Positions 8,032 to 62,100 of a stretch of DNA of 63,987 bases are shown piece by piece (position 1 is the first letter of the stretch; each line of letters opens with the position of its first letter). This DNA comes from a virus. A program made the position numbers and the translations under genes. The stretch is taken from positions 1-63,987 of IMG/VR virus record IMGVR_UViG_3300032093_010543; one strand, 5' to 3'. The notes beneath the pieces are model-generated. The model had not been told where the DNA came from and did not search any database. It saw nothing but the letters and a program-made list of their open reading frames with translations.

Positions 8032-9810
8032 ATGGGATTAACTAAAGAACAAGTCTTAATTGAATACGCTAGGTGTATGAGTGATACTCCATATGCTCTG
8101 AGAACGTATTTACAAACCTACGATAATACAGTATCCAAATACGTTCCTTTGGAACTATTTCCTGATCAAGTATCTTTGTTAAATGATTACGAAAATTTTG
8201 AAGAAAATATTGCGTTAAAGTATCGTCAAGCCGGGGTATCAACAGTTACCGCAGCTTGGATATCAAAAAGATTGGTTTTTGCTAAAAAAACTCAACCTGA
8301 AAAAATTCTAATTATCGCCAACAAACTTGATACGTCAATGGAGATGGCAAATAAGATTAGAGCCTTTGTTGACCAATGGCCTAATTGGGTTGGTGCAGGT
8401 TTTGCGGCAGAAAAAAATTCACAAAGACACTACAAATTAAACAACGGATCAGAGGTAAAAGCGGTAGCAACCTCAAAAGATGCACTTCGTGGATTTACCC
8501 CGACAATTCTTGTATTTGACGAAGCGGCGTTTATCGAAGCCGATAGTGATTTCTGGGCGGCTTGTATGGCATCCTTATCCACAGGGGGTAAGGTAATTGT
8601 GGTTTCTACACCAAACGGATATGACCCAATTTATTATGAGATATATGATCAATCATTGAAAGGAATGAATAACTTCAAAATTTCTGAGATGTATTGGTAT
8701 AGAGATCCAAGATACGCCAAGGATCTTTATTTGGTACCAACTGATGACATTGTTCATTATCTTTTGAATCGTGAAGATTTTGATGAATCAAAAAATATTT
8801 CTTGGGCACATACTGACCCATTTAATAGGGATTATGATGAAATGAAACATTTCTTTAATCAAGGATACAAACCTTGTTCTTCTTGGTACGAAAAAATGGT
8901 TAAAAAACTTAAATACGATAAACGTAAAATTAACCAAGAGTTAAATTGTGAATTTTTAGGTTCGGGAGATAACGTATTTGATAACAAACAATTAGAATTT
9001 ATTAAAGAAAATACAATACAAGAACCACCTTCAAAACTTATGGGAAATTCTCTATGGATTTGGAAAGAACCGATCGAAGGTCACAAGTACATAATGGGTG
9101 TCGATGTTTCTCGAGGTGATAGTGAGGACTTTTCATCCATTCAAATAATTGATTTTGACGAAAGAGAACAAGTCTTAGAGTATGTAGGAAAAATTCCACC
9201 TGATACTTTGGCGGAAGTCGCATATAAGTGGGGTATGATGTATAATGCGTTTGTTGTTGTCGATATCACCGGTGGTATGGGTATAACGACAGTTAGAAAA
9301 ATGCAAGAGTTGGGTTATAAAAGTTTATATATTGATGGAGTTGATTCTATGAATATATGGGCGGTAAATAAAACTTCGGCGGATAAAATACCAGGTATTA
9401 ATTTTAACAATAAAAGAGTTCAGATTATTGCTGCATTTGAGGAAAGTGTAAGACATAAATTTGGTATTAGAAGCGTTCGTTTGTATAACGAGATGAACAC
9501 ATTTGTCTACATAAACGGTAGACCTGATCACCAAAAAGGACAACATGATGACCTTATTATGGGTATATCGATGGCGTTATATGTTGGGGAGTCATCATTT
9601 TCAAAATTAGAGAGAGCCACTGAACACACAAAAAATATGATTGAGTCTTGGGCTGTCGTAAATAATGATGCGGTCGCCAAAGAAGCACATTTTGATCCTG
9701 TAATACCCAATCAGAATGTACTTAGAGATAGAGCGGGATTACATAATAATGGTCCATCAAGAGACGACTATCAAACATATGGTTGGTTATTTGGTGGTTT
9801 AATGAAATAA
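8032..9810 (+). CDS. terL: Terminase large subunit (T4 gp17-like)
   Basis: 592 residues. ATPase: a terminase-type deviant Walker A, KYRQAGVST, at about 63-71, and Walker B ILVFDEAAF with Asp163-Glu164. C-terminal RNase-H-like nuclease: MGVDVSRGDSED (Asp358), VVVDITGGMG (Asp411) and HDDLIMG (Asp506-507). The protein drives DNA into the prohead and cuts the concatemer. The P-loop Lys of T4 gp17 is replaced by Val, which is common in RQxG-type terminases where an upstream Lys or Arg may compensate. Length and domain order match gp17. Portal follows 224 bases downstream; tail sheath and tube genes, which separate these two in T4, are not in this window. Confidence 0.95.
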   Translation: MGLTKEQVLIEYARCMSDTPYALRTYLQTYDNTVSKYVPLELFPDQVSLLNDYENFEENIALKYRQAGVSTVTAAWISKRLVFAKKTQPEKILIIANKLDTSMEMANKIRAFVDQWPNWVGAGFAAEKNSQRHYKLNNGSEVKAVATSKDALRGFTPTILVFDEAAFIEADSDFWAACMASLSTGGKVIVVSTPNGYDPIYYEIYDQSLKGMNNFKISEMYWYRDPRYAKDLYLVPTDDIVHYLLNREDFDESKNISWAHTDPFNRDYDEMKHFFNQGYKPCSSWYEKMVKKLKYDKRKINQELNCEFLGSGDNVFDNKQLEFIKENTIQEPPSKLMGNSLWIWKEPIEGHKYIMGVDVSRGDSEDFSSIQIIDFDEREQVLEYVGKIPPDTLAEVAYKWGMMYNAFVVVDITGGMGITTVRKMQELGYKSLYIDGVDSMNIWAVNKTSADKIPGINFNNKRVQIIAAFEESVRHKFGIRSVRLYNEMNTFVYINGRPDHQKGQHDDLIMGISMALYVGESSFSKLERATEHTKNMIESWAVVNNDAVAKEAHFDPVIPNQNVLRDRAGLHNNGPSRDDYQTYGWLFGGLMK

Positions 9811-10034: not shown

Positions 10035-11849
10035 ATGGAAAATAACAATAAAAATCTAACAGTTTGGCAAAGGTTAGCTACGACTTTTGGACCTGATTCT
10101 ACATTAGGTCAAGGTCAACCTGATTACAAGTTAGATAAAAAAGAAATTTTAAAAACTCAAGATAAAGCTGAATATGAAAGGGCAAAACTTCAAAATCAGC
10201 AATCTCTTTATTTAAGTGGCAATTGGGCTAAAGTAGAAAATAATTTATACACCCAAGCTGTATATTACGAACCAACAAGATTGGCGGCATTCTATGACTA
10301 TGAATCAATGGAATATACCCCTGAGATATCAACAGCTTTAGATATCTATGCCGAGGAATCGACAACACCTGATCAAAACGGTTATGTTTTACAGGTTTAC
10401 TCAGAATCCAAAAGAATAAAAAGTATATTAGTTGATTTATTTATCAATACTTTAGATATAAACACCAACTTACCTATGTGGATTAGAAACATGTGTAAGT
10501 ATGGTGATAATTTTGTTTATTTAAAATTGGACCCAGAAAAAGGGGTTACAGGATGTTTACAACTACCTAACATTGAAATTGAAAGATTAGAAAGAGGTGT
10601 TGACTCAAGAACATACCAAGCAACAATGAATTTAAATAGAAAGGCACTTAAGTTTTCGTGGAAAGCAAGAGATACTGAATTTAATACTTGGGAGGTTGCT
10701 CACTTTAGATTACTAGGTGATGATAGAAAACTTCCTTATGGAACATCGATGTTAGAAAAGGCTCGTCGTATTTGGAAACAGTTGGTATTGGCGGAAGACG
10801 CCATGTTAATTTATAGAACATCAAGAGCACCTGAAAGAAGAGTATTTAAAGTTTACGTTGGTAACATGGATGACAAAGATGTGGAACCATACGTACAAAG
10901 AGTTGCGAACAAATTTAAAAGAGATCAAGTTGTAGATAGAAAAACAGGAAATGTTGATTTACGTTTTAACCAAATGGCAGTGGATCAAGATTACTTTATT
11001 CCTGTACGTGATCCGGCACAAGCAAGTCCAATTGAGACTCTAGCAGGAGCTCAAAACTTATCTGAAATTGCAGATATCGAGTACATCCAAAAGAAATTAG
11101 TTACAGCACTTAGAATTCCTAAAGCTTATTTAGGATTTGAGGAACCTGTAGGTGATGGTAAAAACTTATCATTATTAGATATCCGTTTTGCAAGAACAAT
11201 CAATAGAATTCAAAAATCTGCAATTGCAGAAATGAACAAAATTGCAATCATCCACTTATTTTTAATGGGATTTGAGGATGAATTATCTAACTTTACATTA
11301 CAACTTACAAACCCATCAAAACAAGCCGACTTGTTAATGATTGATGTTTGGAAAGAGAAGGTAACACTATACAAAGATATGGTTAGTGAAATTCCAAAAT
11401 CAATTCAACCTGTTTCAGCCACTTGGGCGAAGAAACATATCTTTGGTTTCTCAGATGAAGAAATTAAACTTGAGTTACAACAAATTAGAATGGAGAGAGC
11501 GGTTTCTACTGAACTTGATAATACCGCAACAATTATCACAAAAACAGGTATTTTTGATACTGTAGATAGACTTTATAAACCTGTAACAGGTGGAACAATG
11601 ACACCTACAGCACCTGCGGCACCAGGGGCTGAGGCAGGAGCAGCACCAGGAGCCGAAGCAGCACCTGCAGAAGCAGCACCTGCAGAAGCAGCACCAACAG
11701 TTCCTGAAAGTATTAGAAAAGAAAAAAATAAATTGATATTAGAATCTAAAGATGATGATTTTGATGAAGATGAGTTTTTAGATTTCCAAAAGATGAATGG
11801 ATCTTTGGGTCTTATTGAGGAGGAATTAAATAAACTTCTTGGTGACTAA
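10035..11849 (+). CDS. 20: Portal protein (T4 gp20-like)
   Basis: 604 residues. The order ALDIYAEESTTPD, then MWIRNMCKYGDNFVYLKLD, then a wing and stem region with RIPKAYLGFEEPVGDGKNLS is typical of T4-type portal proteins. It forms the dodecameric ring at the head vertex, through which DNA enters and to which the neck attaches. The C-terminus has a 40-residue Ala/Pro/Glu-rich stretch (APAAPGAEAGAAPGAE and similar) near residue 520-555, then an acidic helix. T4 gp20 is 524 residues, so the extension accounts for the extra length. Its position between terminase and prohead protease fits. Confidence 0.93.
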   Translation: MENNNKNLTVWQRLATTFGPDSTLGQGQPDYKLDKKEILKTQDKAEYERAKLQNQQSLYLSGNWAKVENNLYTQAVYYEPTRLAAFYDYESMEYTPEISTALDIYAEESTTPDQNGYVLQVYSESKRIKSILVDLFINTLDINTNLPMWIRNMCKYGDNFVYLKLDPEKGVTGCLQLPNIEIERLERGVDSRTYQATMNLNRKALKFSWKARDTEFNTWEVAHFRLLGDDRKLPYGTSMLEKARRIWKQLVLAEDAMLIYRTSRAPERRVFKVYVGNMDDKDVEPYVQRVANKFKRDQVVDRKTGNVDLRFNQMAVDQDYFIPVRDPAQASPIETLAGAQNLSEIADIEYIQKKLVTALRIPKAYLGFEEPVGDGKNLSLLDIRFARTINRIQKSAIAEMNKIAIIHLFLMGFEDELSNFTLQLTNPSKQADLLMIDVWKEKVTLYKDMVSEIPKSIQPVSATWAKKHIFGFSDEEIKLELQQIRMERAVSTELDNTATIITKTGIFDTVDRLYKPVTGGTMTPTAPAAPGAEAGAAPGAEAAPAEAAPAEAAPTVPESIRKEKNKLILESKDDDFDEDEFLDFQKMNGSLGLIEEELNKLLGD

Positions 11850-12329: not shown

Positions 12330-13040
12330 ATGTTCGGAGAATTAAAATCAAAAATAGAAACATACTTAACTGAATCTTATAAAAAAGGAACTTTAAAGGA
12401 TAACTTATTTGTATTTGAGGAGTTAGTGTTGAAAAACAAAAATATATCAAAAATATTTTTCTTGTACGACGAATTATCAAGTAATAAAGGGCTTCAAGAA
12501 AGTGTTGCTAATGAATTCATAAATGAGTCAATAACAGCATATGAAAACTTATATAATAAAGTTTCTCCTTTCAGTGTAAAAGAAATTAAAATGTGGGTTG
12601 GTCATGTTCAGTGTGAAAATACATACAAAGAAATTGATAATCTATTCTCAACAAATGTTTTAACTTTAGAAAACAAAATTAAGAGTAAAAAAGTTATTTT
12701 AGAAAATTTAAAAACTAAAGAACAAGAAAAGAAAGAGATAATTAACGTACCTTTAAAATCTATGGTGAATGTTGCAAACAAAACTGTAGAAAAATACATT
12801 CAGTCACTTTCTGAATCTGAAAGAAAAGAATTAAAGAAATTGTTATCCATCCCAAAAGAAACTTTAATTGAAAACTATAATAAATTAAAGTTGGATGTTT
12901 TTGAAAAATTAAACTCGCAAAAAGATACCTCAGACGAAGAAACGTCAAAGACTATAGATCAAGTTTTAAACAAATTGCAAAACGAATCGTTTAACGAATT
13001 GAATTACTATAAGTTAGGAAAACTAAACGAGGGACTTTAA
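12330..13040 (+). CDS. Hypothetical helical protein, possible prohead core component
   Basis: 236 residues, strongly charged and predicted mostly helical (Lys/Glu-rich with heptad-like stretches around residues 100-200). Function not recognised. The N-terminus MFGELKSKIETYLTESYKK holds L-T-E followed by Ser, a possible prohead protease site. The position between portal and protease and the helical nature would suit an internal core protein; this is inference. Its last 18 bases overlap the antisense bS21 gene. Confidence 0.6.
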   Translation: MFGELKSKIETYLTESYKKGTLKDNLFVFEELVLKNKNISKIFFLYDELSSNKGLQESVANEFINESITAYENLYNKVSPFSVKEIKMWVGHVQCENTYKEIDNLFSTNVLTLENKIKSKKVILENLKTKEQEKKEIINVPLKSMVNVANKTVEKYIQSLSESERKELKKLLSIPKETLIENYNKLKLDVFEKLNSQKDTSDEETSKTIDQVLNKLQNESFNELNYYKLGKLNEGL

Positions 13041-13208
13041 TTTTTGAATATAGGAAGCCTTAATGATTTGGGCTCTTTTCTTAACTGAAGGTTTCACAAA
13101 CTCTTTTCTCTCAAACAAAGCTGAGTTTTGTTTGGTTCTAATAACTTTTCCTTTCAGGTCTTTTAAGGCCTTCTCAATGTTTCCTTTTTTTACTTCTACT
13201 AATAACAT
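13023..13208 (-). CDS. rpsU: Ribosomal protein bS21 homologue
   Basis: 61 residues on the minus strand inside the plus-strand head module. It starts MLLVEVKKGNIEKALKDLKG and continues with ERKEFVKPSVKKRAQ, which matches bS21, especially the Bacteroidota form (short, ending in a basic helix with KPSVxKR). bS21 joins the 30S platform near the 3' end of 16S rRNA. In Bacteroidota ribosomes bS21 helps bS18 and bS6 hide the anti-Shine-Dalgarno sequence. Phage bS21 genes are known in other large phages. There is no Shine-Dalgarno sequence before this ATG. It overlaps the end of the opposite gene by 18 bases. Inference: replaces or supplements host bS21 to favour phage mRNAs. Confidence 0.85.
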   Translation of the reverse strand: MLLVEVKKGNIEKALKDLKGKVIRTKQNSALFERKEFVKPSVKKRAQIIKASYIQKLKSLV

Positions 13209-13227
13209 AAAATTTTTGGTTGTTGAT

Positions 13228-13240
13228 ATAAATATAAATA
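13228..13240 (-). promoter_or_regulatory. Two overlapping TATTTAT motifs upstream of bS21
   Basis: On the minus strand TATTTAT occurs at 13240-13234 and again at 13234-13228, sharing one base; the nearer copy is 19 nt from the bS21 ATG. Read on the plus strand the same bases contain TATAAATA, the classical T4 late core, so they could also serve the 13289 gene. Confidence 0.45.
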
Positions 13241-13288
13241 TTTGTTAGATTTAATCAAAAATAAACATTCAGAGCATGAAAAAATTCT

Positions 13289-13756
13289 ATGAAAAAAGGA
13301 AAAACCACAAAATTAAGTGGATATCGAACATTCAAAGCCCAATATGGGACTATTGATTCTCAAAACTTAAAATCAATTTACATCAACATCCAAACATGGG
13401 TAGAACCCAAAGAAGAAGTGGAAAACTGGAATAGAGTCGTTTTAAATATGACAAGATCAGTTAAACATTGTGTATTAGAAAACATAAACAAAGACACATT
13501 CGACACAAAATTTATTGTAGATTTAGACCTTAGAACAAGTGGACTACAATTAAAAAAGAAATCCTTTATGAATTTAGAAATAAATTTATTTGTGTTAGAA
13601 CCAATGGATTTCAAATCCCCCAAATTAAAAAAATCAGTTAAAAATTTAATCAAAGAAGTTTATAGTGACGTTTTTAGTAAACACAAATATTTTAAATGTT
13701 TCCTTACAAAAAACGGAAATCAAAAACTTGTCAAGAAAGAAACTGAAACTATTTAG
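13289..13756 (+). CDS. Hypothetical protein, 155 aa, head region
   Basis: Not recognised. It starts MKKGKTTKLSGYRTFKAQYG and alternates beta-like strands with basic segments (LKKKSFMNLEINLFVLEPMDF). An upstream ATG at 13276 is in another frame. It lies just before the prohead protease. A small beta-rich head or neck protein is possible, but nothing in the sequence proves it. Confidence 0.55.
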   Translation: MKKGKTTKLSGYRTFKAQYGTIDSQNLKSIYINIQTWVEPKEEVENWNRVVLNMTRSVKHCVLENINKDTFDTKFIVDLDLRTSGLQLKKKSFMNLEINLFVLEPMDFKSPKLKKSVKNLIKEVYSDVFSKHKYFKCFLTKNGNQKLVKKETETI

Positions 13757-13777: not shown

Positions 13778-14506
13778 ATGAGCGATTTAAAAATATTAGG
13801 ACCAAGAGATTCAGGAAAAGGGATTCTTGTTGAGTATGACGCAGGATATATAGATCCAAATGAAAGAAGAAACTTATCTATGATTAGAGAGAATCGTGAT
13901 ATGTTAGATCATTCTAAACCATTTGAATTTTATGCGGTATTACAAAAATATAATACCCCTAATAGAAACGGGAGAGTTTATCCTGAAAAGATTCTCAAAA
14001 GAGAAGCTGAGAATTACAAAAAAATGATTCAAAAAGGAACTGCACTTTCTGAATTAAATCACCCTGAATCATCTCTAATAGATTTAGATCGAGTATCACA
14101 CGCCATTACCGATATATGGTGGGAAGGTCCTGTGTTATTAGGTAAATTGAAATTACTTACAAGTCCAGGTTTTCACGAAAGAGGTATTGTATCAACTAAA
14201 GGAGATTTGGCCGCTAACTACCTTCGTCAAGGAGTTACTTTAGGTATATCTTCTCGTGGGGTTGGATCTCTTAAAAAAGTTGGTGAACAAAATGAAGTAC
14301 AAGATGATTTTGAATTAATTTGTTTTGACTTAGTATCATCACCATCTACGCCAGGTGCATATCTTTTCAGAGACAAAGACGAAAGAATGAATTATGAGGA
14401 GAATTTGGATGAGGAGAAAAAAATGCAAGCAGAAAGACATATTGGTGAAACAGGATCAAAATCGCTTGACTTAATGAATAGATTGTCCGATTATTTGAAT
14501 AAATAA
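13778..14506 (+). CDS. 21: Prohead core protease (T4 gp21-like)
   Basis: 242 residues. Family hallmarks: FYAVLQKYNTPNRNGRVYPE near the start, SELNHPE with the likely catalytic His95, and LGISSRGVG with a Ser at about 158-159, spaced as in T4 gp21-type serine proteases. It digests the scaffold and trims capsid proteins during head maturation, cutting after (L or I)-x-E. The downstream order of scaffold then capsid is that of T4. The C-terminus is charged and may be removed by self-cleavage. Confidence 0.93.
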   Translation: MSDLKILGPRDSGKGILVEYDAGYIDPNERRNLSMIRENRDMLDHSKPFEFYAVLQKYNTPNRNGRVYPEKILKREAENYKKMIQKGTALSELNHPESSLIDLDRVSHAITDIWWEGPVLLGKLKLLTSPGFHERGIVSTKGDLAANYLRQGVTLGISSRGVGSLKKVGEQNEVQDDFELICFDLVSSPSTPGAYLFRDKDERMNYEENLDEEKKMQAERHIGETGSKSLDLMNRLSDYLNK

Positions 14507-14843: not shown

Positions 14844-16370
14844 ATGAAAAATACAAATATGGCAAACAACCAAAATGTAGTAGAGGATGCTCTTTATCAA
14901 ATTAGAAATTTGGAAGAGACCTTACAAGAAAATGCAAAAGGAATACTTCAATCCACAATGAGCGAAGAAATCAAACAATTAGTAAAAGAATCTCTTAAAG
15001 AATCAAAAAAAGATGAGGAGATTGATGAGCAAGATGAACCCGTAACAGGTGGAGAAGCTGAAATGGACACAGAAACTGAAGTAGAAGATGAGGACATGGA
15101 CGATGATATGGAGGCTGATGCTGAAATGGAAATGGACACTGAAGATTCTGATATGGAAGGTGAAGACGAAGTCGAAGATGTGGACATGGAAGGAGACGAA
15201 ATGGAAGATGAAGAAACTATCGATATGACAGGAGCTTCTGACGCTGAAGTCTTAAGAGTTTTCAAAGCTATGGGTGATAATGATGGAATCGTCGTGAAAA
15301 AAGAAGGTGAGAATATTCACTTTACAGACGGTGATAATGAATACATGATCCATTTGGGTGAATCTGAAGAAGATATGAATGAAACAATTTACGAAATAGA
15401 AATGGACGAAGAAGACGACATGATGGAAATGGAAGATGACATGATGGAAATGGAAGATGACATGATGGAATATGACATGATGGAAATGGAAGATGACATG
15501 ATGGAAATGGAAGATGACATGATGGAAATGGATGACGAAATGATGGAAATGGAAAATGAATTTGACATGGACGGTATTATGGAGTCAATCAAAAAATCTG
15601 TTAAACCAAAAGGTGTTGGAATTGGAAAAGGTCCAAAATTTAGCTATGACAAAAAACCTAACATGGGTGGAGGTTTCAATGAAAAAAGAAAAGAAGCTTT
15701 TGGAAAAGGAACTAAAGCAATGGGTACAGGTAAAGCTAAATTTGAATACAAAGAAGAAAAAGAGTGGGGTGGTAACAAAGGTGACTACAAGAGAAGTAAA
15801 GGTCACAAAGTAGGTGATAAAGATGGTCACTATAAAGACTATGAAAAGAAAGAAACTAAAGAAGCTGTGAGAACTAATAGTTATCCTAGAGCTAACAAAG
15901 TTGGTAACAGAAAAGGTTCTAACCAAAATGTGAATAGACAAGAAATTAGAGTAAGACCTAACACAAGAGTTAACGAAGAAGTTCAATTATTGAAAAATAA
16001 AAATGATGAGTACAAAAAAGCACTTGACGTTTTTAGAACTAAATTGAACGAGGTTGCTGTGTTTAACTCAAATTTGGCGTACGCTACTCGTTTGTTTACT
16101 GAACACTCAACTACTAAACAAGAAAAAGTTAACATCTTAAGAAGATTTGATAATGTTGAATCTTTGAAAGAATCAAAAAATCTGTACAGAGTTATTAAAA
16201 ATGAGTTAAACTCAACTGGCTCTTCATCAGAACAAAAAATAACTGAATCAATTGAAAGAACTGTAAATAGAACTGTTGAAACAGGTTCAGCGGTAAACTT
16301 AATTGAATCAAAAACTTATGAAAATCCTCAATTCTTGAGAATGAAGGATTTAATGGGAAAAATAAAATAA
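14844..16370 (+). CDS. 22: Prohead scaffold / core protein (T4 gp22-like)
   Basis: 508 residues, or 503 if translation begins at the in-frame ATG 14859 (MANNQNVVED), which has an equally good A-rich context. Helical N-terminus, then a strongly acidic Met/Asp/Glu-rich region to about residue 245 with MMEMEDD repeats, then a basic Gly/Lys-rich middle (residues about 255-370), then a helical C-terminal third with LLKNKNDEYKKALDVFRTK. It lies between prohead protease and major capsid, the exact place of T4 gene 22, and its acidity fits a core that is digested on maturation. The basic middle region is not typical of T4 gp22, which is shorter (269 residues). Confidence 0.8.
   Translation: MKNTNMANNQNVVEDALYQIRNLEETLQENAKGILQSTMSEEIKQLVKESLKESKKDEEIDEQDEPVTGGEAEMDTETEVEDEDMDDDMEADAEMEMDTEDSDMEGEDEVEDVDMEGDEMEDEETIDMTGASDAEVLRVFKAMGDNDGIVVKKEGENIHFTDGDNEYMIHLGESEEDMNETIYEIEMDEEDDMMEMEDDMMEMEDDMMEYDMMEMEDDMMEMEDDMMEMDDEMMEMENEFDMDGIMESIKKSVKPKGVGIGKGPKFSYDKKPNMGGGFNEKRKEAFGKGTKAMGTGKAKFEYKEEKEWGGNKGDYKRSKGHKVGDKDGHYKDYEKKETKEAVRTNSYPRANKVGNRKGSNQNVNRQEIRVRPNTRVNEEVQLLKNKNDEYKKALDVFRTKLNEVAVFNSNLAYATRLFTEHSTTKQEKVNILRRFDNVESLKESKNLYRVIKNELNSTGSSSEQKITESIERTVNRTVETGSAVNLIESKTYENPQFLRMKDLMGKIK
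15417..15546 (+). repeat. 21-bp tandem repeat coding MMEMEDD units in the scaffold gene
   Basis: About six units built on gacatgatggaaatggaag, each seven codons, some shortened. In-frame and confined to the acidic region. Confidence 0.85.
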
Positions 16371-16400: not shown

Positions 16401-18347
16401 ATGGGAGCATTATTAGAATCAGGTCTTGTAGGTAACATCGGGTTGAAACACCTTAAAGTTATCAAAGAAGACACAATTAACAAGTGGGACAAATTAGGCT
16501 TTTTGGATGGTCTAAAAGGTCACTTAAAAGAAAACGTTGCACAATTATACGAAAACCAAGCATCTTACTTAATCAACGAAGCAACTTCTGACGGTCAATC
16601 AAACGGAGCGTTCGAAACAGTTGTTTTCCCAATCGTAAGAAGAGTTTTCTCTAAATTGTTAGCTAACGACATCGTATCAGTACAAGCAATGAACTTACCT
16701 ATTGGTAAATTGTTCTACTTTGTACCAAGAATCCAAGGATATGCAAACGCATCTTCTGAGTATGCTAACTTATATCCTAACTCGACACCTTCTAACAGTA
16801 CTGCTGGTGGTGACCACTACGCACCTATTGGATCTCCTGAAGCTGTTAACGCAGGATTAAATAACCCTAATCAAGGATACCCTGACAATGATTACTATTA
16901 CAAGAAAGATCTTTATGATTTATTCTATGAAGGTAATGAAGCGTCTTTAGATCCTCCAGGATTATTTGACTACTCTAAAGGTAAATGGACTGCAGTTACT
17001 GCAACTACATCTGTTCAAGCTTGGGCTGGATCAGCATTGGTTGACGCTAACATTGGAGCAGGAGAAATTATACCAGCTGGAAACTATAGAAAAGTAATCG
17101 TTAAACTTTGTGGATTTGCAAGTGCAGGAGCAGGTAAATTAATTGGTCCTGACGGTAACGAAATGGATACAGAATCATTCCTTTCTGACCTTAGATTGTA
17201 CGCAGCTAACGGGTTCTCTGCTAACACAAGTTCACCTTGTAGTGTGACAACAACTACTTACAACGGATCTACAGTATACGCACCTCTATTGTTTAGAGTT
17301 GTAACTCAAATCTATGGTAAAGGTATTGTTAAATACGGAACAAACCAAGGAACTACATTCAGAAATGCAGGTAACAACAATACTGTAGATTACACACCTC
17401 CAACAGGTAACGGTGGTAACTATAATGACATTTGTGATGCTAACGGATGTATTTGGTTAGAAGTTGACCTTTCTTGTCCTGTATGTGCTGACTGTGACGC
17501 AACATCTTTAGATGGTTACACAGGTACTACAATCGCATCAGGTGGATCAGCTACTTCATTTACTGCATGGTATAGAAGATATGCTAACCTTGAGTTCGAA
17601 GATCAAATTGGTGAGGTTTCTTTTGACCTTGAGTCAGTAACTGTATCTGTTACAGAAAGAAAACTAAGAGCACAATGGTCTCCTGAATTAGCTCAAGACG
17701 TTGCAGCATTCCATAACATCGACGCTGAAGCTGAGTTAACGGCATTGTTATCTGAGCAAGTAGCAGCTGAGATTGACCGTGAAATCTTACGTGACTTACG
17801 TAAAGGTGCAGCATGGCAATTACGTTGGGATTACAACGGATGGAGAAGAATCAACAACCAAGTATCTTACACTCAAAAAGACTGGAACCAAACTTTGATT
17901 ACAGCAATCAACCAATTGTCAGCACAAATCCACAAATCTACTTTGAGAGGTGGTGCTAACTGGATCGTTGTTTCATCTGAGGTTTCTGCTATCTTTGACG
18001 ATTTAGAATACTTCCACGTATCTAACGCAGCTCCTGAGCAAGATCAGTACAACATGGGTATTGAGAGAGTTGGTACATTATCTGGTAGATACCAAGTTTA
18101 CCGTGATCCTTACTTCCCGCCTAACCAAGTGTTAATCGGTCACAAAGGAACATCATTGTTAGACACAGGTTACATCTACGCACCGTATGTACCTCTACAA
18201 TTGACACCTACAATGTACAACCCATTCAACTTTACACCTATTAAAGGTATTATGACACGTTACGCTAAGAAAATGGTTAACAACCGTTTCTACGGACGTA
18301 TCACAGTTGATGGAGTTAGAACATTCGACTTGAGAGAATTGAGATAA
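16401..18347 (+). CDS. 23: Major capsid protein (T4 gp23-like)
   Basis: 648 residues, longer than T4 gp23 (521). The N-terminal segment GLVGNIGLKHLKVIKED and FETVVFPIVRRVFSKLLAND match gp23 proteins, as does the C-terminal PFNFTPIKGIMTRYAKKMVN. A likely maturation site is LINE-A after Glu60, fitting the T4 rule and close to the T4 position (Glu65). An insertion of roughly 250 residues (about 130-390) carries most of the extra length. It includes a Cys-rich strand, CDANGCIWLEVDLSCPVCAD, near residue 345-365. The codon choice here is visibly more selective (many AAC and GCA codons), as expected for the most abundant protein. No TATTTAT precedes it; it probably shares the scaffold transcript. 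Confidence 0.96.
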   Translation: MGALLESGLVGNIGLKHLKVIKEDTINKWDKLGFLDGLKGHLKENVAQLYENQASYLINEATSDGQSNGAFETVVFPIVRRVFSKLLANDIVSVQAMNLPIGKLFYFVPRIQGYANASSEYANLYPNSTPSNSTAGGDHYAPIGSPEAVNAGLNNPNQGYPDNDYYYKKDLYDLFYEGNEASLDPPGLFDYSKGKWTAVTATTSVQAWAGSALVDANIGAGEIIPAGNYRKVIVKLCGFASAGAGKLIGPDGNEMDTESFLSDLRLYAANGFSANTSSPCSVTTTTYNGSTVYAPLLFRVVTQIYGKGIVKYGTNQGTTFRNAGNNNTVDYTPPTGNGGNYNDICDANGCIWLEVDLSCPVCADCDATSLDGYTGTTIASGGSATSFTAWYRRYANLEFEDQIGEVSFDLESVTVSVTERKLRAQWSPELAQDVAAFHNIDAEAELTALLSEQVAAEIDREILRDLRKGAAWQLRWDYNGWRRINNQVSYTQKDWNQTLITAINQLSAQIHKSTLRGGANWIVVSSEVSAIFDDLEYFHVSNAAPEQDQYNMGIERVGTLSGRYQVYRDPYFPPNQVLIGHKGTSLLDTGYIYAPYVPLQLTPTMYNPFNFTPIKGIMTRYAKKMVNNRFYGRITVDGVRTFDLRELR

Positions 18348-19582: not shown

Positions 19583-19996
19583 CTATTGTTCAGATATTTT
19601 ATTGTAAACCTTAACTAAAGAATTTTTAATATTTGATTTTACTTCAGCTTCAGTTAGGTTTCTTCTTTTTTCAGTTTCAGTATCGTATAAGTAGGTAACA
19701 CGTTCAAAATCTCTACTACTCATTTTTACATCATAATGAAATACGTGATTAGTAATCTCAACTCTTCCAAAATCAATAAGGACGAAAAGACCTAATTCTT
19801 CATTTATAATGTACCTTTTGTTAGACATAGGTGCAATCATAAAATCAGATTTTTTATGTGATATCATTTTCACAACAATCTTGAATGCGGTTTTTTCATA
19901 AGGTTCTATTTCTTCATGAGTTGGCATAGATTTTCTCATTCTTTTTGCCATTTTGACCTTAAATCTTTTGTAGAGTCTTTTAAAAAAGTTTTTCAT
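19583..19996 (-). CDS. Hypothetical protein, 137 aa, with host-type promoter
   Basis: Starts with a strongly basic helix (MKNFFKRLYKRFKVKMAKRM), followed by a beta-rich domain with YIINEELGLFVLIDFGRVEI. Function not recognised. The basic amphipathic start could bind nucleic acid or membrane. Unlike its structural neighbours it has a Bacteroidota-type promoter and no nearby TATTTAT, so early or middle expression is likely. Its stop directly abuts that of the convergent 18638 gene. Confidence 0.6.
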   Translation of the reverse strand: MKNFFKRLYKRFKVKMAKRMRKSMPTHEEIEPYEKTAFKIVVKMISHKKSDFMIAPMSNKRYIINEELGLFVLIDFGRVEITNHVFHYDVKMSSRDFERVTYLYDTETEKRRNLTEAEVKSNIKNSLVKVYNKISEQ

Positions 19997-50154: not shown

Positions 50155-53100
50155 ATGGCAAATCCGTATAAAAATCCACAAACACCTTTATTATCGGTTG
50201 GAACTTTTTCAGTTCAACCAAGTCAAACATTTGGTACTAATTTTAGTATATATGGTGTTGGTGGTTATGTAGAAGTTTATGAACTTCAGGATTTAATATA
50301 CACCATACCATCAGGTTCACAAGGAGATATAGAATTTTCAGGTAATACAATTCCAATACAATTTCAAAAAGGTAGCGGATCAGTTTTTTCACCCGATGTT
50401 TTGACATTAAATTCAGATAACATTTCATCGGGTCGTAGAAGACTTGGTATGTTAGCATATGTGTATTCAACACAAGAGATATTTCAATATAACATCCCAA
50501 ATTATACAACACTTTGGAATAATGCGTTAGCATCCTCAGGACCTGGAGGACCAACGGTGGTACAATCAAAGTTTGGAACTACAGTTAAAAGTAATTCAGT
50601 GGCAGGAAAGGCACTAATTAGTGCTTGGACGGGGTCAACTATTCAAGGACACAGTGGTGGAACTGCGAATTCTAATTGGAGATTGTTAGATACAGGTGGT
50701 TGTTGTATTACAGGATTTACATATAATAACGATAATAGTTTTACAATATACGATGATAACGGTGGTGTGTTTACTGCATCATTTGATGTTGTTACAGGTT
50801 TAACAGTATCAGGAGGAACTTTAATTGTTAATGGTGTTAATATAACAGGAGACACTTATACAACAGGCGGAACATATTTTAGTGCGTCGAGTACGATTGA
50901 TTTATATGATAATCAAGGTGGAATTATAAGTATTACAGGTGTTACGGCAACTGGTGCTGCAGGTTCAAGTGGTACATCTGGTTCAAGTGGTACATCAGGG
51001 ACTAATGGTTCAAGCGGAACCAACGGGACTTCAGGTACAAATGGAACAAACGGTTCGAGCGGAACCAACGGGACTTCAGGTACTAATGGTACGGATGGGA
51101 CTTCAGGTACTAATGGTACGGATGGGACTTCAGGTACTAATGGTACGGATGGTACTTCAGGCACAAACGGAAGTAATGGTACAAGCGGGTTATCAGGGGT
51201 AAATGGTACTTCAGGTACAAACGGAACTTCGGGAACTAATGGTACAAACGGAACTTCGGGAACTAATGGTACAGATGGTAGTTCAGGCACTAACGGAACA
51301 GATGGTAGTTCAGGTACAAATGGAACTAACGGAACTAATGGTACAGATGGTAGTTCAGGAACTAACGGAACAGATGGTAGTTCAGGTACAAATGGAACTA
51401 GCGGAACTAATGGAACTTCAGGAACCAATGGAACCTCAGGAACCAATGGAACAAATGGAACTAGCGGTACAAATGGAACTAATGGCACCTCAGGAACAAA
51501 TGGTACTAATGGAACATCGGGAACCAATGGAACTTCAGGTACAAATGGAACCAATGGTACTAGCGGAACAAACGGAACATCAGGCACTAACGGAACTAAT
51601 GGAACATCAGGCACTAACGGAACTAATGGTTCAAGTGGTACCAATGGTACATCAGGTACTAACGGAACTAACGGAACATCAGGAACTAACGGAACTAACG
51701 GAACATCAGGTACTAACGGAACATCAGGTACTAACGGAACTAATGGGACAAGCGGTACTAATGGGACAAGCGGTACTAATGGAACTTCAGGAACTAATGG
51801 AACTAATGGTACAAGCGGTACTAATGGAACAAACGGCACAAACGGTTCAAGTGGTACCAACGGTACTAGCGGAACTAATGGAACTAATGGAACATCAGGA
51901 ACCAATGGAACGAATGGTACATCGGCCACAAATGGAACTAGCGGGACTAATGGTTCAAGTGGAACGAATGGTACAAGTGGTTTATCAGGTGTAAATGGTA
52001 CATCAGGAACTAATGGAACTTCAGGAACTAATGGTACAAACGGTACTAGCGGAACCAACGGAACATCTGCCACTAACGGAACTTCAGGTACAAATGGAAC
52101 TTCAGGTACAAATGGAACTTCAGGTACAAATGGAACCAATGGTACTAGCGGAACGAATGGAACCTCAGGGACTAATGGTACCTCAGGAACTAATGGAACG
52201 AATGGTACAAATGGAACTAGCGGAACAAATGGTACTAATGGGACTTCTGGTACGAATGGAACAAACGGAACTAGTGGAACAAACGGAACTAGTGGAACAA
52301 ATGGAACAAACGGTACTTCAGGTACAAATGGTACGAATGGAACTAGCGGAACTAATGGTACTTCAGGCACTAACGGAACGAACGGTACTTCAGGTACAAA
52401 CGGAACTTCAGGTACAAATGGAACAAACGGTACTTCAGGTACAAATGGTACAAATGGAACTAGCGGAACGAATGGAACATCAGGCACTAACGGAACTAAT
52501 GGTACCAACGGTACTAGTGGAACAAATGGAACAAATGGAACATCAGGCACTAACGGAACTAATGGTTCAAGTGGTACCAACGGTACTAATGGCACCTCAG
52601 GAACAAATGGTACTAATGGAACATCGGGAACAAATGGTACTAATGGAACATCGGGAACCAATGGAACTTCAGGTACAAATGGAACTAATGGGACTAGCGG
52701 TACAAATGGTACTGATGGAACTAGCGGTACAAATGGTACTAGTGGAACCAATGGGACAAACGGAACATCAGGTACTAACGGAACGAATGGTACTAGCGGA
52801 ACAAATGGTACCTCAGGTACTAACGGAACTAATGGAACCTCAGGAACCAATGGAACAGATGGATCTTCAGGTACAAATGGTACAAATGGAACTAGTGGAA
52901 CGAACGGAACATCAGGAACAAACGGTACTAATGGAACATCGGGAACAAACGGAACATCAGGTACTAACGGAACCTCAGGAACAGATGGAACATCAGGTAC
53001 AAATGGAACATCAGGCACCAATGGAACATCTGGTACTAACGGAACTAATGGAACCAACGGAACTTCAGGTACAAATGGAACATCAGGCACTAACGGAACT

Positions 53101-56100
53101 AACGGGACTTCAGGTACTAACGGAACAAACGGAACAAACGGTACAAGTGGAACAAATGGAACTAGCGGAACTAATGGTACTAATGGAACAAGTGGGTTAT
53201 CGGGTGTAAATGGTACTAGTGGGACAAATGGAACTAATGGAACATCAGGTACAAATGGTACTAGTGGGACAAATGGAACTAATGGTACATCAGGGACTAA
53301 TGGTACTAATGGGACTTCGGGAACAAATGGATCAAGTGGAACTAACGGTACTAATGGGACATCAGGTACAAATGGTACTAGCGGAACTAATGGAACTAAT
53401 GGAACTTCAGGAACAAATGGTACCAATGGGACTTCTGGCACGAACGGAACTAGCGGTACAAACGGAACTAATGGATCATCAGGTACTAATGGAACGAATG
53501 GTACAAGTGGTACAAATGGTACGAACGGAACTAATGGAACGAATGGTACAAGCGGTACAAATGGAACTAGCGGAACAAATGGAACCTCAGGAACAAACGG
53601 TACTAATGGAACATCGGGAACAAACGGAACATCAGGTACTGATGGAACAAATGGTACGAACGGAACTTCAGGTACTAATGGTACAAATGGAACCTCAGGT
53701 ACTAATGGTACTAGCGGAACAAATGGAACTTCAGGTACAAATGGGACAAATGGTACAAACGGTACATCAGGTACGAATGGAAGTAGCGGGACCAATGGTA
53801 CTAATGGAACGAATGGTTCAAGTGGAACTAATGGAACGAATGGTACTGACGGTACTAGTGGGACAAATGGAACTAGCGGTACAAATGGTACAAATGGTAC
53901 TAGCGGAACTAATGGTACAAACGGTACTAGTGGAACCAATGGAACTAGCGGAACAAATGGTACAAACGGATCTTCAGGTACTAACGGTACAAGTGGAACC
54001 AATGGGACAAACGGAACATCAGGTACTGATGGGACTAACGGAACCAACGGTTCTTCAGGTACTAATGGAACTAATGGTACTAATGGTACAAGCGGAACAA
54101 ATGGTACTAACGGAACCTCAGGAACAAATGGAACGTCAGGGACTAATGGTACTAATGGTAGTTCAGGTACAAACGGAACGAATGGAACATCGGGCACTAA
54201 CGGAACTTCAGGAACAAATGGTACTAGCGGGACCAACGGTACAAATGGTACTAGCGGGACCAACGGGACTAGTGGAACAAACGGCACTTCGGGTACAAAT
54301 GGTACTAATGGTACTAATGGTACGTCAGGTACTGATGGAAGTAGTGGAACAAACGGTACTAATGGTACTTCAGGTACGAATGGTACAAACGGAACTTCAG
54401 GAACAAATGGTACCAATGGAACTAGCGGAACGAATGGTACTAGTGGAACAAACGGTACTAATGGTACTTCAGGTACGAATGGTACAAACGGAACTTCAGG
54501 AACAAATGGTACTAATGGTACTTCAGGTACAAACGGAACTTCAGGAACAAATGGTACCAATGGAACTAGCGGAACGAATGGTACTAGTGGAACAAATGGT
54601 ACTTCAGGTACAAACGGAACTTCAGGAACAAATGGTACCAATGGAACTAGCGGAACAAATGGTACCAATGGAACTAGCGGAACGAATGGTACTAGTGGAA
54701 CAAATGGTACTAATGGTACTTCAGGTACAAACGGAACTTCAGGAACAAATGGTACCAATGGAACTTCAGGAACCAACGGAACAAATGGAACTAACGGTAC
54801 AAGTGGGACAAATGGTACCTCAGGTACGAACGGTACAAATGGAACCTCAGGAACAAACGGAACTAATGGTACGTCAGGCACTGATGGAAGTAGTGGAACA
54901 AATGGTACAAACGGGACTTCTGGTACGAATGGTACAAATGGTACTTCAGGAACTAATGGAACATCAGGTACGAACGGTACAAACGGAACTTCAGGAACTA
55001 ATGGAACATCAGGTACGAACGGTACAAATGGGACTTCTGGAACCAATGGTACTAATGGTACGAGCGGGACCAATGGTACTAACGGTACAAACGGAACTTC
55101 AGGTACGAATGGGACAAATGGTTCAAGCGGTACTAACGGTACGTCAGGTACGAATGGGACAAATGGTTCAAGCGGTACTAACGGTACGTCAGGTACAAAT
55201 GGAACTAATGGAACTAATGGTACAAGCGGAACAAATGGTACAGATGGTACTTCAGGAACAAATGGTACAAACGGCACTTCAGGTACGAATGGGACATCAG
55301 GAACTAATGGTACAAATGGAACTAGTGGAACGAACGGAACTAACGGATCATCAGGTACTAATGGAACGAATGGTACTTCAGGAACTAACGGAACTTCAGG
55401 AACAAACGGTACTAATGGAACAGATGGTACTAGCGGGACCAACGGTACAAATGGTACTAGTGGAACGAATGGAACAAACGGTACTTCGGGTACAAATGGG
55501 ACTAGTGGAACAAATGGTTCAAGTGGAACTAACGGAACGAATGGTACATCAGGTACAAACGGAACTAATGGTACGTCAGGTACTGATGGAACTAGTGGAA
55601 CAAATGGTACCAATGGGACAAGTGGAACGAACGGAACTTCAGGAACCAACGGTACAAACGGATCATCAGGTACTAATGGAACTAATGGAACTAATGGTAC
55701 ATCTGGTACTAATGGAACAAATGGAACTAGCGGTACGAATGGTACTAGCGGAACAAATGGTACAAACGGCACTTCAGGTACAAATGGTACTAACGGTACA
55801 AGTGGAACAAATGGTACCTCAGGTACGAATGGGACAAATGGAACATCAGGTACAAACGGGACTTCTGGTACAAATGGAACTAGCGGTACGAATGGCACTT
55901 CAGGTACAAATGGAACAAATGGTACAAGTGGAACAAATGGTACAAGTGGAACAAATGGTACCTCAGGTACAAATGGTACAAATGGAACTTCAGGAACTAA
56001 CGGAACTTCAGGTACAAACGGCACTAGCGGAACAAATGGAACAAATGGAACCTCAGGTACAAATGGAACATCAGGAACTAATGGGACTTCGGGAACTAAT

Positions 56101-59100
56101 GGTACTAGTGGAACGAATGGAACATCGGGAACAAACGGAACTAATGGTACTAGTGGAACGAATGGTACTAACGGAACTAGCGGAACAAATGGTACTTCAG
56201 GAACTAACGGTACTAACGGCACAAGTGGAACAAATGGTACTAACGGAACTAGCGGAACAAATGGTACTTCAGGAACTAACGGTACTAACGGCACAAGTGG
56301 AACAAATGGTACTAATGGAACATCGGGAACAAACGGAACTAATGGAACAAATGGAACTAGCGGTACTAATGGTACATCAGGAACTAACGGAACTAATGGT
56401 ACTAGTGGAACAAATGGAACATCGGGAACAAACGGAACTAATGGTACTAGTGGAACGAATGGTACTAACGGAACCAATGGAACTTCAGGGACTAATGGGA
56501 CTTCTGGCACTAATGGAACAAATGGAACTAGCGGTACGAATGGAACAAATGGAACTTCAGGTACTAATGGTACCTCAGGTACAAATGGAACTAGCGGTAC
56601 GAATGGAACAAATGGAACTTCAGGTACTAATGGGACCTCAGGTACAAATGGAACATCAGGAACTAACGGTACTAATGGTACATCAGGAACTAATGGCACA
56701 TCAGGTACTAACGGTACTAACGGTACATCAGGAACTAATGGAACATCAGGTACTAATGGGACTAGTGGAACAAATGGAACAAATGGTTCAAGCGGTACAA
56801 ATGGAACTAGCGGAACGAATGGTACAAATGGAACTAGCGGAACGAATGGTACAAATGGAACTAACGGTACATCAGGTACAAATGGTACTAATGGGACTTC
56901 GGGAACCAATGGTAGTAGTGGAACTAATGGTACAAACGGCACTTCAGGTACGAATGGAACATCAGGAACAAATGGCACTAACGGTACAAGTGGGACAAAT
57001 GGAACTTCAGGAACTAACGGTACTAATGGTACATCAGGAACTAACGGAACTAGCGGAACCAATGGTACAAATGGAACTAACGGAACTAGCGGAACCAATG
57101 GTACAAATGGAACTTCAGGAACTAACGGTACTAATGGTACATCAGGAACTAACGGAACTAGCGGAACCAATGGTACAAATGGAACATCAGGTACAAACGG
57201 AACTAATGGTACTAGTGGAACGAATGGTACTAGCGGTACAAATGGTACAAATGGAACTTCAGGTACTAATGGTACTAGCGGAACAAATGGAACTAATGGA
57301 TCTTCAGGCACAAATGGAACATCGGGAACAAACGGAACTAATGGCACTAGTGGAACGAATGGTACTTCAGGTACCAATGGAACTAGCGGGACCAATGGAA
57401 CATCAGGAACAAATGGTACAAATGGTACGAGCGGGACCAATGGAACTAGCGGTACTAATGGGACATCAGGGACTAACGGAACGTCAGGAACAAACGGAAC
57501 GAGCGGTACAAATGGTACTAACGGAACTAGTGGTACAAATGGTACAAGTGGAACAAACGGTACAAACGGCACTAGCGGAACAAATGGAACGTCAGGGACT
57601 AATGGTACAAATGGAACTTCAGGGACTAATGGTACAAATGGAACTAATGGTACATCAGGTACAAATGGAACGTCAGGGACTAATGGTACAAACGGCACTT
57701 CAGGAACCAACGGGACTAATGGAACTAGCGGAACAAATGGTACTAATGGAACATCAGGAACTAATGGAACTAGCGGAACAAATGGTACAAACGGGACTTC
57801 GGGGACTAATGGAACAAACGGAACTTCAGGAACCAACGGGACTAATGGAACTAGCGGAACAAATGGTACTAATGGAACATCAGGAACTAATGGAACTAGC
57901 GGAACAAATGGTACAAACGGGACTTCGGGGACTAATGGAACAAACGGAACTTCAGGAACCAACGGGACTAATGGAACTAGCGGAACAAATGGTACTAATG
58001 GAACATCAGGAACTAATGGAACTAGCGGAACAAATGGTACAAACGGGACCTCAGGTACGAATGGAACAAATGGAACATCGGGTACTAACGGAACTAATGG
58101 TACAAACGGAACATCAGGTACTAACGGAACTAGTGGTACAAACGGAACTTCAGGTACGAATGGGACAAATGGTTCAAGCGGTACCAATGGTACTAGCGGT
58201 ACAAATGGAACAAACGGTACTAGTGGAACAAATGGAACCTCAGGAACGAATGGTACTAATGGAACATCGGGAACCAATGGAACTAGCGGAACTAATGGTA
58301 CGAACGGTACAAGCGGTACCAATGGTACTAGCGGTACTAATGGAACTAGCGGTACTAATGGAACAAATGGAACCTCAGGAACGAATGGTACTAATGGAAC
58401 ATCGGGAACCAATGGAACTAGCGGAACTAATGGTACGAACGGTACAAGCGGTACCAATGGTACTAGCGGTACTAATGGAACTAGCGGTACTAATGGGACA
58501 AATGGTACGAGCGGGACTAATGGAACATCGGGAACCAATGGAACTAGCGGAACTAATGGTACGAACGGTACAAGTGGAACAAATGGAACTAGCGGTACTA
58601 ATGGAACTAGCGGTACTAATGGGACAAATGGTACGAGCGGGACCAATGGAACATCAGGAACAAATGGTACAAATGGTTCAAGTGGTACCAACGGAACTAG
58701 CGGAACAAATGGTACGAATGGTACCAACGGTACTAGCGGAACAAATGGTTCAAGCGGTACTAATGGTACTTCAGGAACTAACGGAACTAATGGTACTAGC
58801 GGAACAAATGGTTCAAGCGGTACTAATGGTACTTCAGGAACTAACGGAACTAATGGATCTTCAGGTACTAATGGTACATCTGGTACTAATGGAACCAACG
58901 GAACTAGCGGAACAAATGGTACTTCAGGAACCAACGGTACTAGTGGAACAAACGGAACAAATGGAACTAGTGGAACAAATGGTTCTTCAGGTACAAACGG
59001 AACAAATGGTTCGAGTGGTACCAACGGAACTAGCGGGACCAATGGAACTTCAGGAACTAATGGAACAAATGGTACAAGTGGTACTAATGGAACATCAGGA

Positions 59101-62100
59101 ACTAATGGATCTTCGGGAACTAATGGTACTAGCGGTACTAACGGAACATCAGGAACGAATGGTACTAGCGGAACAAACGGAACTTCAGGAACCAACGGGA
59201 CTAATGGAACATCAGGTACAAATGGAACGTCAGGGACTAACGGTACAAATGGGTCAAGTGGTACAAACGGAACGTCAGGTACTAATGGGACTTCGGGAAC
59301 AAATGGAACCAACGGTACAAATGGGTCAAGTGGTACAAACGGAACAAACGGTACAAGTGGAACCAACGGAACATCGGGAACTAATGGTTCTAGCGGTACG
59401 AATGGTACTTCAGGAACTAATGGTACGAATGGATCTTCGGGAACTAATGGTACTAGCGGTACTAACGGAACTAATGGATCTTCAGGTACAAATGGAACAT
59501 CAGGTACTAACGGAACTAATGGATCTTCAGGTACAAATGGAACATCAGGTACTAACGGAACTAATGGATCTTCAGGTACAAATGGAACGTCAGGAACTAA
59601 TGGAACTTCAGGTACAAACGGAACAAACGGTAGTTCGGGAACAAATGGAACTAGCGGTACAAATGGGACTAATGGCTCTTCAGGAACAAATGGAACTTCA
59701 GGAACCAACGGAACAAACGGTACTTCAGGAACCAACGGAACATCGGGTACTAACGGAACTAGTGGGACAAATGGTACTAACGGGTCTTCAGGTACAAATG
59801 GAACGTCAGGAACTAATGGAACTTCAGGTACAAACGGAACAAACGGTAGTTCGGGAACAAATGGAACTAGCGGTACAAATGGGACTAATGGATCTTCAGG
59901 TACTAACGGGACAAATGGTTCAAGCGGTACCAACGGAACTTCAGGAACTAACGGAACATCCGGTACTAATGGAACAAATGGTTCAAGTGGTACCAACGGA
60001 ACTAGTGGTACTAACGGAACAAATGGATCGAGCGGTACAAATGGAACAAACGGTTCAAGTGGAACAAACGGAACATCAGGAACTAATGGTACAAGTGGAA
60101 CCAACGGAACATCAGGAACTAATGGAACCAATGGTACAAGTGGGGTTTCTCCTACAGTACCTGGAGCTAATAATGAAGTACTAACTTCAGATGGTGCGGG
60201 CGGCATAGTTGCTGAATCACTTTTAACTTTTGATGGTACAATCACATCACCTTACTTGAATATTAATTCAGTAAAGGTAGGTAGAGGGAATAACAATGTT
60301 GCAACTAACATTTCAATTGGATGTACGGTTGCATTTGCTAATACCGCAACGGGACCATTAAACATTGCAATTGGTGGATTTTCTTTAAAATGTAATACTA
60401 CAGGATGTAGGAATGTTGGTATTGGACCGAACAGCCTTTACACGAATACTTCAGGAAATAGAAATATTGGTATTGGATATAGGTCTTTACTGTTGAACTC
60501 GAATGGTGCAGAAAACGTCGCAATAGGGGGACAATCTACTTTATCTTCAAATACCTCGGGAAGTAATAATGTTGGTATTGGTAGCTACGCTTTGAGATAT
60601 ACAACAACAGGAAATTACAACTTTGCGATTGGTAGTAGAGTATTAAATTGTAATACAACGGGAAGTTGTAATATTGGTATTGGTCGATTATCATTATATT
60701 GTAACACAACTGGTTGTCACAACACGGCATTTGGATTTTGTTCATTACGTAGTAATACTACAGGTTCACAAAATAATGCAATGGGTCAATACGCATTGAG
60801 AAGTAACACTACAGGTTCACAAAATAATGCATTTGGGCGTAATGCTTTACGAAGCAATGTTAGTGGTGTCAATAACGTCGCAATTGGTGATGGTACTTTA
60901 TTTAATAATACAATTGGTAGTGGTAATTTAGCAGTTGGGTATCGATCTATGTCTTCAAACATAAATGGGGGTAATAATACCGCAATTGGTAGATACTCTT
61001 TACAATCTAACACACAGGGAACCTATAATAACGCGATAGGATTATCTTCATTACGTAATAACACATTAGGTTGTCATAATACGGCAATTGGTAGGTATTC
61101 ATTGTTAAATAACAATACAGGTAACTTTAATACCGCAATTGGTCAATATGCTTTAAGAAATAATACGTCGGGTCTTCATAACATAGCAATTGGTTGTCAA
61201 TCCTTACGTTATAATACAACAGGGTGTGATAATGTTTCGTTTGGACGAGACGCATTACGTTTCTCTACAACAGGCAGTAATAATATTGGAATTGGTAGAG
61301 AAACTCTATACGCATTTGGGGCTAAATATGACAACGTTGCGATAGGGTATCGATCTTTAAAATGCGTAACAACAGGATGTTGTAATATAGCAATTGGTAG
61401 ACGAGCATCATATAATAATACAACTGGTAATAATAATGTTTCTATTGGATCGGGAGTATTATTTCAAAATACAACGGGTTGTCAAAATATTGGAATAGGA
61501 ATATCTAATTTAGATAATAATACGACAGGTTATCAGAATATCTCCATAGGTGCGTCCGCTTCACTTGCCAATACAACTGGATCACGAAACCTTTCAATTG
61601 GGTACAGAGCATTATTTTCAAATGTTGGGGGTTGTTATAATATTGCAATAGGTCACTTTAGTTTATATTGTAGTAATACACTAAGTCACGAAATTGCAAT
61701 TGGTTCGGAAGCTATGAGATATAGAGCCCCTTTCAATTTACCTGGACCTGCAAATATTGCTATTGGTCTGTTCGCCCTAAGGGGGTGTAACTATACGTAT
61801 AAACAATGTGGATATGGAAACATTGCAATTGGCGGTTGTTCTCAAAGATATAACTCTACAGGACATTACAATATAGGTATAGGTAGTAACACATTAACTT
61901 TAAATAAAACTGGACGGCAAAATGTTGCTATTGGTGCAAATGCACTTAGAAATACAACAGCTTACAATCCATCCGTAGCGGTAGGTTTTTTAGCCTTATG
62001 TACCCAAACAACAGGTTATAATAATACTGCAGTAGGTACGAGAGCTTTACAATCAAATTCAACTGGTATTAGAAATACCGCAGTTGGTCATTTCGCATTA

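Follow-up and report, generated by a model that had tools for sequence, protein, structure and literature searches.

bS21 Gene within a T4-like Head Module

The DNA analysed here, referred to below as the window, is the whole 63,987-nucleotide stretch of IMG/VR virus record IMGVR_UViG_3300032093_010543. It contains a T4-like head module in which a short gene is placed, on the opposite strand, between the portal and prohead protease genes. The features of this region are as follows:

8032–9810, plus strand: terminase large subunit, TerL (phrog_5989, E = 4e-25)
10035–11849, plus strand: T4-like portal, gp20 (PF07230, 264 bits)
12330–13040, plus strand: convergent neighbour of bS21, 236 aa, all-helical in the predicted model, with an 18-bp 3′ overlap with bS21
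13023–13208, minus strand: bS21 (rpsU-like) gene, 61 aa, ATG start (PF01165 and TIGR00030)
13209–13288, no strand: divergent intergenic region, 80 bp, aligned with those of relatives
13228–13240, minus strand: overlapping TATTTAT pair, 26 and 32 nt before the bS21 start, a candidate late promoter
13259–13266, plus strand: AAATAAAC motif before the divergent gene; a motif of the same type precedes the major capsid protein gene (16401)
13289–13756, plus strand: divergent neighbour of bS21, 155 aa, 78–98% identical across most of the clade
13778–14506, plus strand: prohead protease, gp21, S77 (PF03420, 80.5 bits)
14844–16370, plus strand: 508-aa gene at the gp22 scaffold position in the interval between the protease and capsid genes, without a family match
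16401–18347, plus strand: major capsid protein, MCP, gp23 (PF07068, 247 bits)

The product of the minus-strand open reading frame running from 13208 to 13023, MLLVEVKKGNIEKALKDLKGKVIRTKQNSALFERKEFVKPSVKKRAQIIKASYIQKLKSLV, scored 38.5 bits (E = 9e-10) with the Pfam profile PF01165, whose curated cut-off is 27 bits, and 29.5 bits with the NCBIfam profile TIGR00030 (cut-off 28.95). Its closest solved structure is F. johnsoniae bS21 (7jil_z, E = 9e-10), and its identity as bS21 can be regarded as practically certain. An initial annotation of this DNA had proposed a Bacteroidota-type bS21, with which both the best solved relative and the presence of an equivalent of Tyr54 agree. The same annotation described a lone minus-strand gene among plus-strand head genes, overlapping one of them by 18 bases; the open reading frame, the profiles and the neighbours bear this out, and bS21 and the convergent gene share exactly 18 bp (13023–13040). 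The word “antisense” that it used is apt as far as the opposite strand and the 3′ overlap are concerned, but the gene is convergent with 12330–13040, divergent from 13289–13756 and nested in no gene.

A search for σ70-type promoters around bS21 returned 3 promoter-like sites against 1.9 expected, no intrinsic terminators were found around the gene, and an Rfam search of the whole window gave no match. Family searches with both neighbours of bS21 yielded no credible match, and a fold search with the convergent gene product found no significant match in the PDB. The divergent 155-aa protein has a confidently predicted fold (pLDDT 87); its PDB match is weak, with no close solved relative, and only A0A8S5L9A5, an uncharacterised protein of Myoviridae, matches its fold strongly.

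Comparison with Published Phages

Chen et al. described in 2022 a set of 47 genomes of Bacteroidetes phages in which bS21 lies “on the reverse strand” in the TerL/portal/protease/MCP region (PMC9723584). Metatranscriptomes showed that bS21 is expressed together with structural genes, and the authors proposed that phage bS21 enters ribosomes late in infection, a takeover hypothesis (PMC9723584). The layout of this lineage, a reversed bS21 gene flanked by two conserved hypothetical genes within the TerL/portal/protease/MCP region, is present in the window, which also shares with the bS21 myophages of their clades a–e an aromatic residue 54, a diverged N-terminal helix and sugar and LPS-type genes elsewhere. 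The convergent 236-aa gene and the divergent 155-aa gene are the two candidates for what Chen et al. call bS21_CN. Genomes of that lineage are 293–331 kb long with 5–25 tRNA genes, a figure with which the window, a 64-kb fragment that has 0 tRNA genes and carries no completeness estimate, is not comparable. Since the arrangement, the late expression and the takeover hypothesis are all described in that work, the novelty of the window locus is limited, and the central idea of the initial annotation was already published (PMC9723584). In the main text of Chen et al., we found neither a Shine–Dalgarno (SD) comparison nor a motif analysis of the kind made here.

Two cultured T4-like phages can be compared with the window. 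Microcystis phage Mel-JY01 (PP395634), whose portal shows 42% identity over 69% of the query, has an RpsU annotated in its head module; however, this RpsU (L324:9557–9784) has 75 aa and lies on the same strand, between the protease and capsid-side genes. Flavobacterium phage immuto (MW353176) has the T4-like TerL–portal–protease–MCP order and a portal 37.5% identical, but no bS21 is annotated between its portal and MCP genes and no bS21 match was found there.

Conservation of the Arrangement in Relatives

Scanning IMG/VR with the window bS21 protein gave 144 relatives, from which 80 loci were kept. Since many IMG/VR loci are near-copies, counts of distinct sequences are used below where possible. 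bS21 was recovered in 77 of the 80 loci and was reversed in all 77; in each of these, every detectable neighbour (portal, convergent, divergent, protease and MCP genes) was on the opposite strand, in unchanged order. A search that started from the divergent gene found bS21 in 76/80 loci, reversed in 76/76 complete ones; in the remaining four, bS21 is not visible because the divergent gene starts 11–110 bases from the contig end. A sister clade (clade B; the clade of the window is clade A) was found through the portal of locus L062. There, bS21 was reversed in all bS21-bearing loci (69/69), and nearly all others end before the place of bS21. One sister-clade relative, L302, has both neighbours and lacks bS21, so the gene is not indispensable there, which counts against the role that we favour below. 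At the bS21 place of this relative (L302:3517–3654), a terminator-like hairpin, AAGTGTTTTT...AAAAACACTT, is followed by a T run.

The overlap between bS21 and the convergent gene was always 4, 9, 15 or 18 bp (76 loci). Pairwise dN/dS of bS21 had a median of 0.14 (0.16 for pairs with dS<0.8) and a maximum of 0.37. Synteny, fixed orientation and low dN/dS thus indicate a genuine feature on whose protein product selection acts; the arrangement, being kept by purifying selection and in conserved synteny, is not due to chance.

Residues and Ancestry of the Phage bS21

A residue table was compiled from 36 distinct phage bS21 proteins and 74 distinct cellular ones plus that of F. johnsoniae. In F. 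johnsoniae, Tyr54 locks the anti-Shine–Dalgarno (ASD) tail in a pocket formed by bS21, bS18 and bS6. This tyrosine is present in 74/74 host proteins and in 35/36 distinct phage proteins, the exception having His; Y53 of the window bS21 aligns with it. The C-terminal half of phage bS21 thus retains residues that do not vary among the host proteins; besides Tyr54, phage and host proteins have in common there F38, K40, S42, V43, R46, K51, A52 and Q56. Fixed or disjoint differences lie in the N-terminal part, at positions 4, 5, 8, 10 (deleted), 13, 14, 18, 19, 21, 23, 24, 28, 29 and 33, and the window bS21 carries every one of them. Chen et al. reported that phage bS21 diverges at Arg21, Phe23, Asp25 and Thr28 and retains an aromatic residue 54 (PMC9723584); the window protein has G, V, I and Q in place of R, F, D and T at 21, 23, about 24–25 and 28. 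It also has both marks of a Bacteroidia-type, ASD-sequestering bS21, an aromatic residue at 54 and the C-terminal half that binds the 16S 3′ tail. The comparison with host bS21, which the initial annotation had suggested, thus shows that the half predicted to close the ASD is kept, while the putative mRNA-facing N-terminal helix has diverged. Compared with F. johnsoniae rpsU (PMC9976891; 7jil), the fold and the ASD-pocket residues including Tyr54 are the same, whereas residue 10 is deleted, the N-terminal helix is changed and the phage gene is without an extended SD.

In a tree built on 64 columns, phage bS21 sequences formed one group (100/100) on a long stem, drawn among Flavobacteriaceae sequences; support for the point of attachment is weak, and the cellular sequences had been selected for their similarity to phage bS21. 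The simplest reading would be a single old acquisition from a Flavobacteriaceae-like host.

Upstream Motifs and Expression Timing

The initial annotation had pointed out the overlapping TATTTAT pair before bS21 as fitting late expression. The pair is indeed there (13240–13228 when read in the sense of bS21), is conserved and is common to head genes. In the window clade, TATATTTATAT was found on the bS21 strand in 29/29 distinct upstream sequences, 24–28 nt before the start. Within the window, a sense TATTTAT lies no more than 60 nt upstream of 14 of the 48 genes (shuffle mean 1.6), a count that 0 of 1000 shuffles reached. In the two clades, the motif precedes the portal gene in 26/26 and 48/48 distinct sequences, the protease gene in 38/38 and 42/42, the gene at the scaffold position in 5/5 and 35/35 and the convergent gene in 10/10 and 42/42; for TerL, it was found in 14/16. 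We found no earlier report of a conserved TATTTAT on the bS21 strand shared with the TerL, portal, protease and scaffold genes.

Judging from position and orientation, we infer that the TATTTAT-type motifs are promoters. Should transcripts start a few bases downstream of the motif, the leaders would be short, and for genes with the motif 11–12 nt from the start (8032 and 11861), a leaderless mRNA is possible.

No TATTTAT was found upstream of the MCP gene and the divergent gene in the relatives examined. In the window clade, these genes are preceded by AAATAAAC (29/29 distinct upstream sequences for the divergent gene and 28/29 for MCP), pointing to a second class of promoter or to a leader element. 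The sharing of promoters is not universal either, for bS21 of clade B (L061, L062, L072 and L242–L321) lacks TATTTAT and has another conserved element, TTGTCAAAA...GATATTTGTA(A)TAT, which abuts the start codon, and this counts against the explanation that we prefer. The element, which can also be written as TTGTCA...GATATTTGTA or, up to the start codon, as TTGTCAAAA...GATATTTGTAATAT, resembles a promoter that would yield a nearly leaderless mRNA.

Shine–Dalgarno Comparison

McNutt et al. showed in 2023 that bS21 of F. johnsoniae is subject to autoregulation: in ribosomes that lack it, the ASD is free, and these ribosomes translate rpsU via an extended SD (PMC9976891). Lack of bS21 made initiation faster on rpsU mRNA but slower on mRNAs without an SD (PMC9976891). 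The authors speculate on phages, and no phage SD analysis was found in their paper (PMC9976891).

We calculated the duplex energy of the 25 nt before each start codon with an assumed Flavobacterium-type 16S tail and counted pairing energies below −13 kcal/mol as an extended SD. Flavobacteriaceae-type cellular rpsU genes were below this value in 80 of 80 cases, with a median of −19.2; these 80 genes were picked by similarity to phage bS21, are biased towards Flavobacteriaceae and may differ from that of the true host. In the clade of the window, 0/29 distinct upstream sequences of bS21 were below −13 (median −2.0, minimum −4.6 kcal/mol), and in the sister clade, 0/49 (median −1.6, minimum −6.4 kcal/mol; for one member, L248, the energy was measured slightly inside the gene). 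The window gene itself, at −2.0 kcal/mol, is without the extended SD of autoregulated Bacteroidota rpsU. As controls, other host genes had a median of −2.8 kcal/mol with 0.4% below −13, and other phage genes a median of −2.4 kcal/mol. That the phage genes lack SD signals, as had been claimed initially, was confirmed by the window as a whole: none of 55 called gene starts has AGGA, GGAG or GAGG just upstream (shuffle mean 2.1). We found no earlier report of phage bS21 genes without an extended SD against sampled host rpsU genes that all have one.

Independent bS21 genes of huge phages vary, with energies of −12.1 (LR756501), −5.1, +0.4 and −2.4, the last at an uncertain start; SD loss is therefore a property of the window lineage and not of every phage bS21. 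This variation, like the bias of the cellular set, counts against the explanation preferred below. The bS21 of LR756501 keeps a strong SD and may stay under host-type control. This gene (L323:6001; the LR756501 genome has 735 kb) encodes a protein 56% identical to that of the window and adjoins a thymidylate-synthase-like open reading frame.

Possible Role of the Phage bS21

bS21 is the commonest ribosomal protein in phages, and Bacteroidota are, to our knowledge, the one setting where it has a defined switch function, namely ASD closing and rpsU autoregulation. We consider it somewhat better than an even chance that the phage gene makes a functional late bS21 that replaces bS21 on host 30S subunits and escapes the host feedback loop. 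The protein would be made late, from a TATTTAT-type promoter common to head genes, and would occupy the bS21 place on the host 30S. Ribosomes lacking bS21 would do most of the translation of host rpsU, by way of its extended SD, and output of the host gene should therefore stop once ribosomes are replete; having no SD, the phage gene would be driven by late transcription regardless of the bS21 supply. As phage bS21 fills the 30S subunits, the ASD would stay closed, which would sustain initiation on late phage mRNAs that have no SD (initiation falls without bS21) and keep host rpsU shut off. Incorporation, repression of host rpsU and any preference for phage mRNAs are deduced steps. On this reading, the phage would produce bS21 in quantity late in infection, free of the host brake.

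According to the initial annotation, a phage whose genes lack SD signals would benefit from controlling bS21 late. The SD-less genes and the late-type motif uphold this in part; host mRNAs are SD-less too (median −2.8 kcal/mol, as above), so this property alone cannot tell phage from host mRNAs. SD-lessness was accordingly rejected as a sufficient basis for phage-mRNA selection. Since an extended SD precedes host rpsU and is missing from the phage gene, the likely advantage lies less in the choice of SD-less mRNAs than in an escape from autoregulation. More tentatively, and with a probability that we put a little under one half, phage bS21 over-made from late promoters may saturate the 30S and silence host rpsU, turning a specialised-ribosome loop into a takeover switch. 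This would have lasted throughout a phage lineage in which bS21 was apparently acquired once and has two upstream layouts (TATTTAT in clade A and TTGTCA...GATATTTGTA in clade B).

Selection among mRNAs could instead lie in the changed N-terminal helix, which would read phage late leaders, so that substituted ribosomes would prefer phage over host SD-less mRNAs. This is a strong form of the published hypothesis (PMC9723584), and it accords with the concentration of changes in the helix over the mRNA path (residue table; PMC9723584) and with the short AT-rich forms that late leaders share. It nevertheless appears unlikely, with perhaps one chance in five: no common leader element was found beyond the promoter-like motifs, and host mRNAs are likewise SD-less and A-rich.

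Rather less probable still is a host shut-off in which phage bS21 acts as a ribosome poison that impairs host initiation generally, with late phage mRNAs using some other feature or factor. Mizuno et al. reported in 2019 that bS21 of Pelagiphage HTVC008M enters E. coli ribosomes and that in vitro translation falls to about 5% (PMC6375957). The entry into ribosomes speaks for the replacement that we favour; the fall in translation also fits poisoning of host ribosomes and counts against that replacement, and the strong change of the mRNA-facing helix in the present lineage points the same way. However, the assay used a mismatched host, co-expression with structural genes late in infection would be a poor time to lower translation (PMC9723584), and the retained ASD-closing half suits a working part. 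The Pelagiphage protein is, like that of the window, phage-borne; it differs in being of the Alphaproteobacterial type, for which the ASD stays exposed, and in representing a separate acquisition.

A role in overcoming defence, in which phage bS21 restores initiation after removal or degradation of host bS21 (by the host or another phage product) or after defensive stalling of phage protein synthesis, has been proposed (PMC9723584; PMC9976891), and a gene without an SD would stay outside the host feedback loop; we regard it as quite improbable, because no protease or other bS21-directed factor was identified and conserved late expression in unstressed phages suffices without such a role. Antisense RNA acting on the convergent head gene, with the protein incidental, was rejected as the main role and is highly improbable despite the convergent 4–18 bp overlap and the orientation fixed in relatives, since the overlap is short and confined to 3′ ends, the full bS21 domain is conserved and dN/dS is 0.14.

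If the replacement of host bS21 by the late phage protein is the right reading, phage bS21 of this lineage would provide an actual example of specialised ribosomes made by a virus. Because host and phage genes differ in an all-or-none manner in their SD, the idea of a takeover, so far vague, becomes one that a simple reporter can address.

Other Features of the Window

A long minus-strand block at 19583–46768 of the window contains nucleotide-sugar epimerase, aminotransferase and glycosyltransferase genes, which resemble those reported for published bS21 phages. At 50155–63429, there is an open reading frame of 4424 aa, with an open frame of 3110 aa on the opposite strand (50913–60245); the former probably encodes a repetitive giant structural protein.
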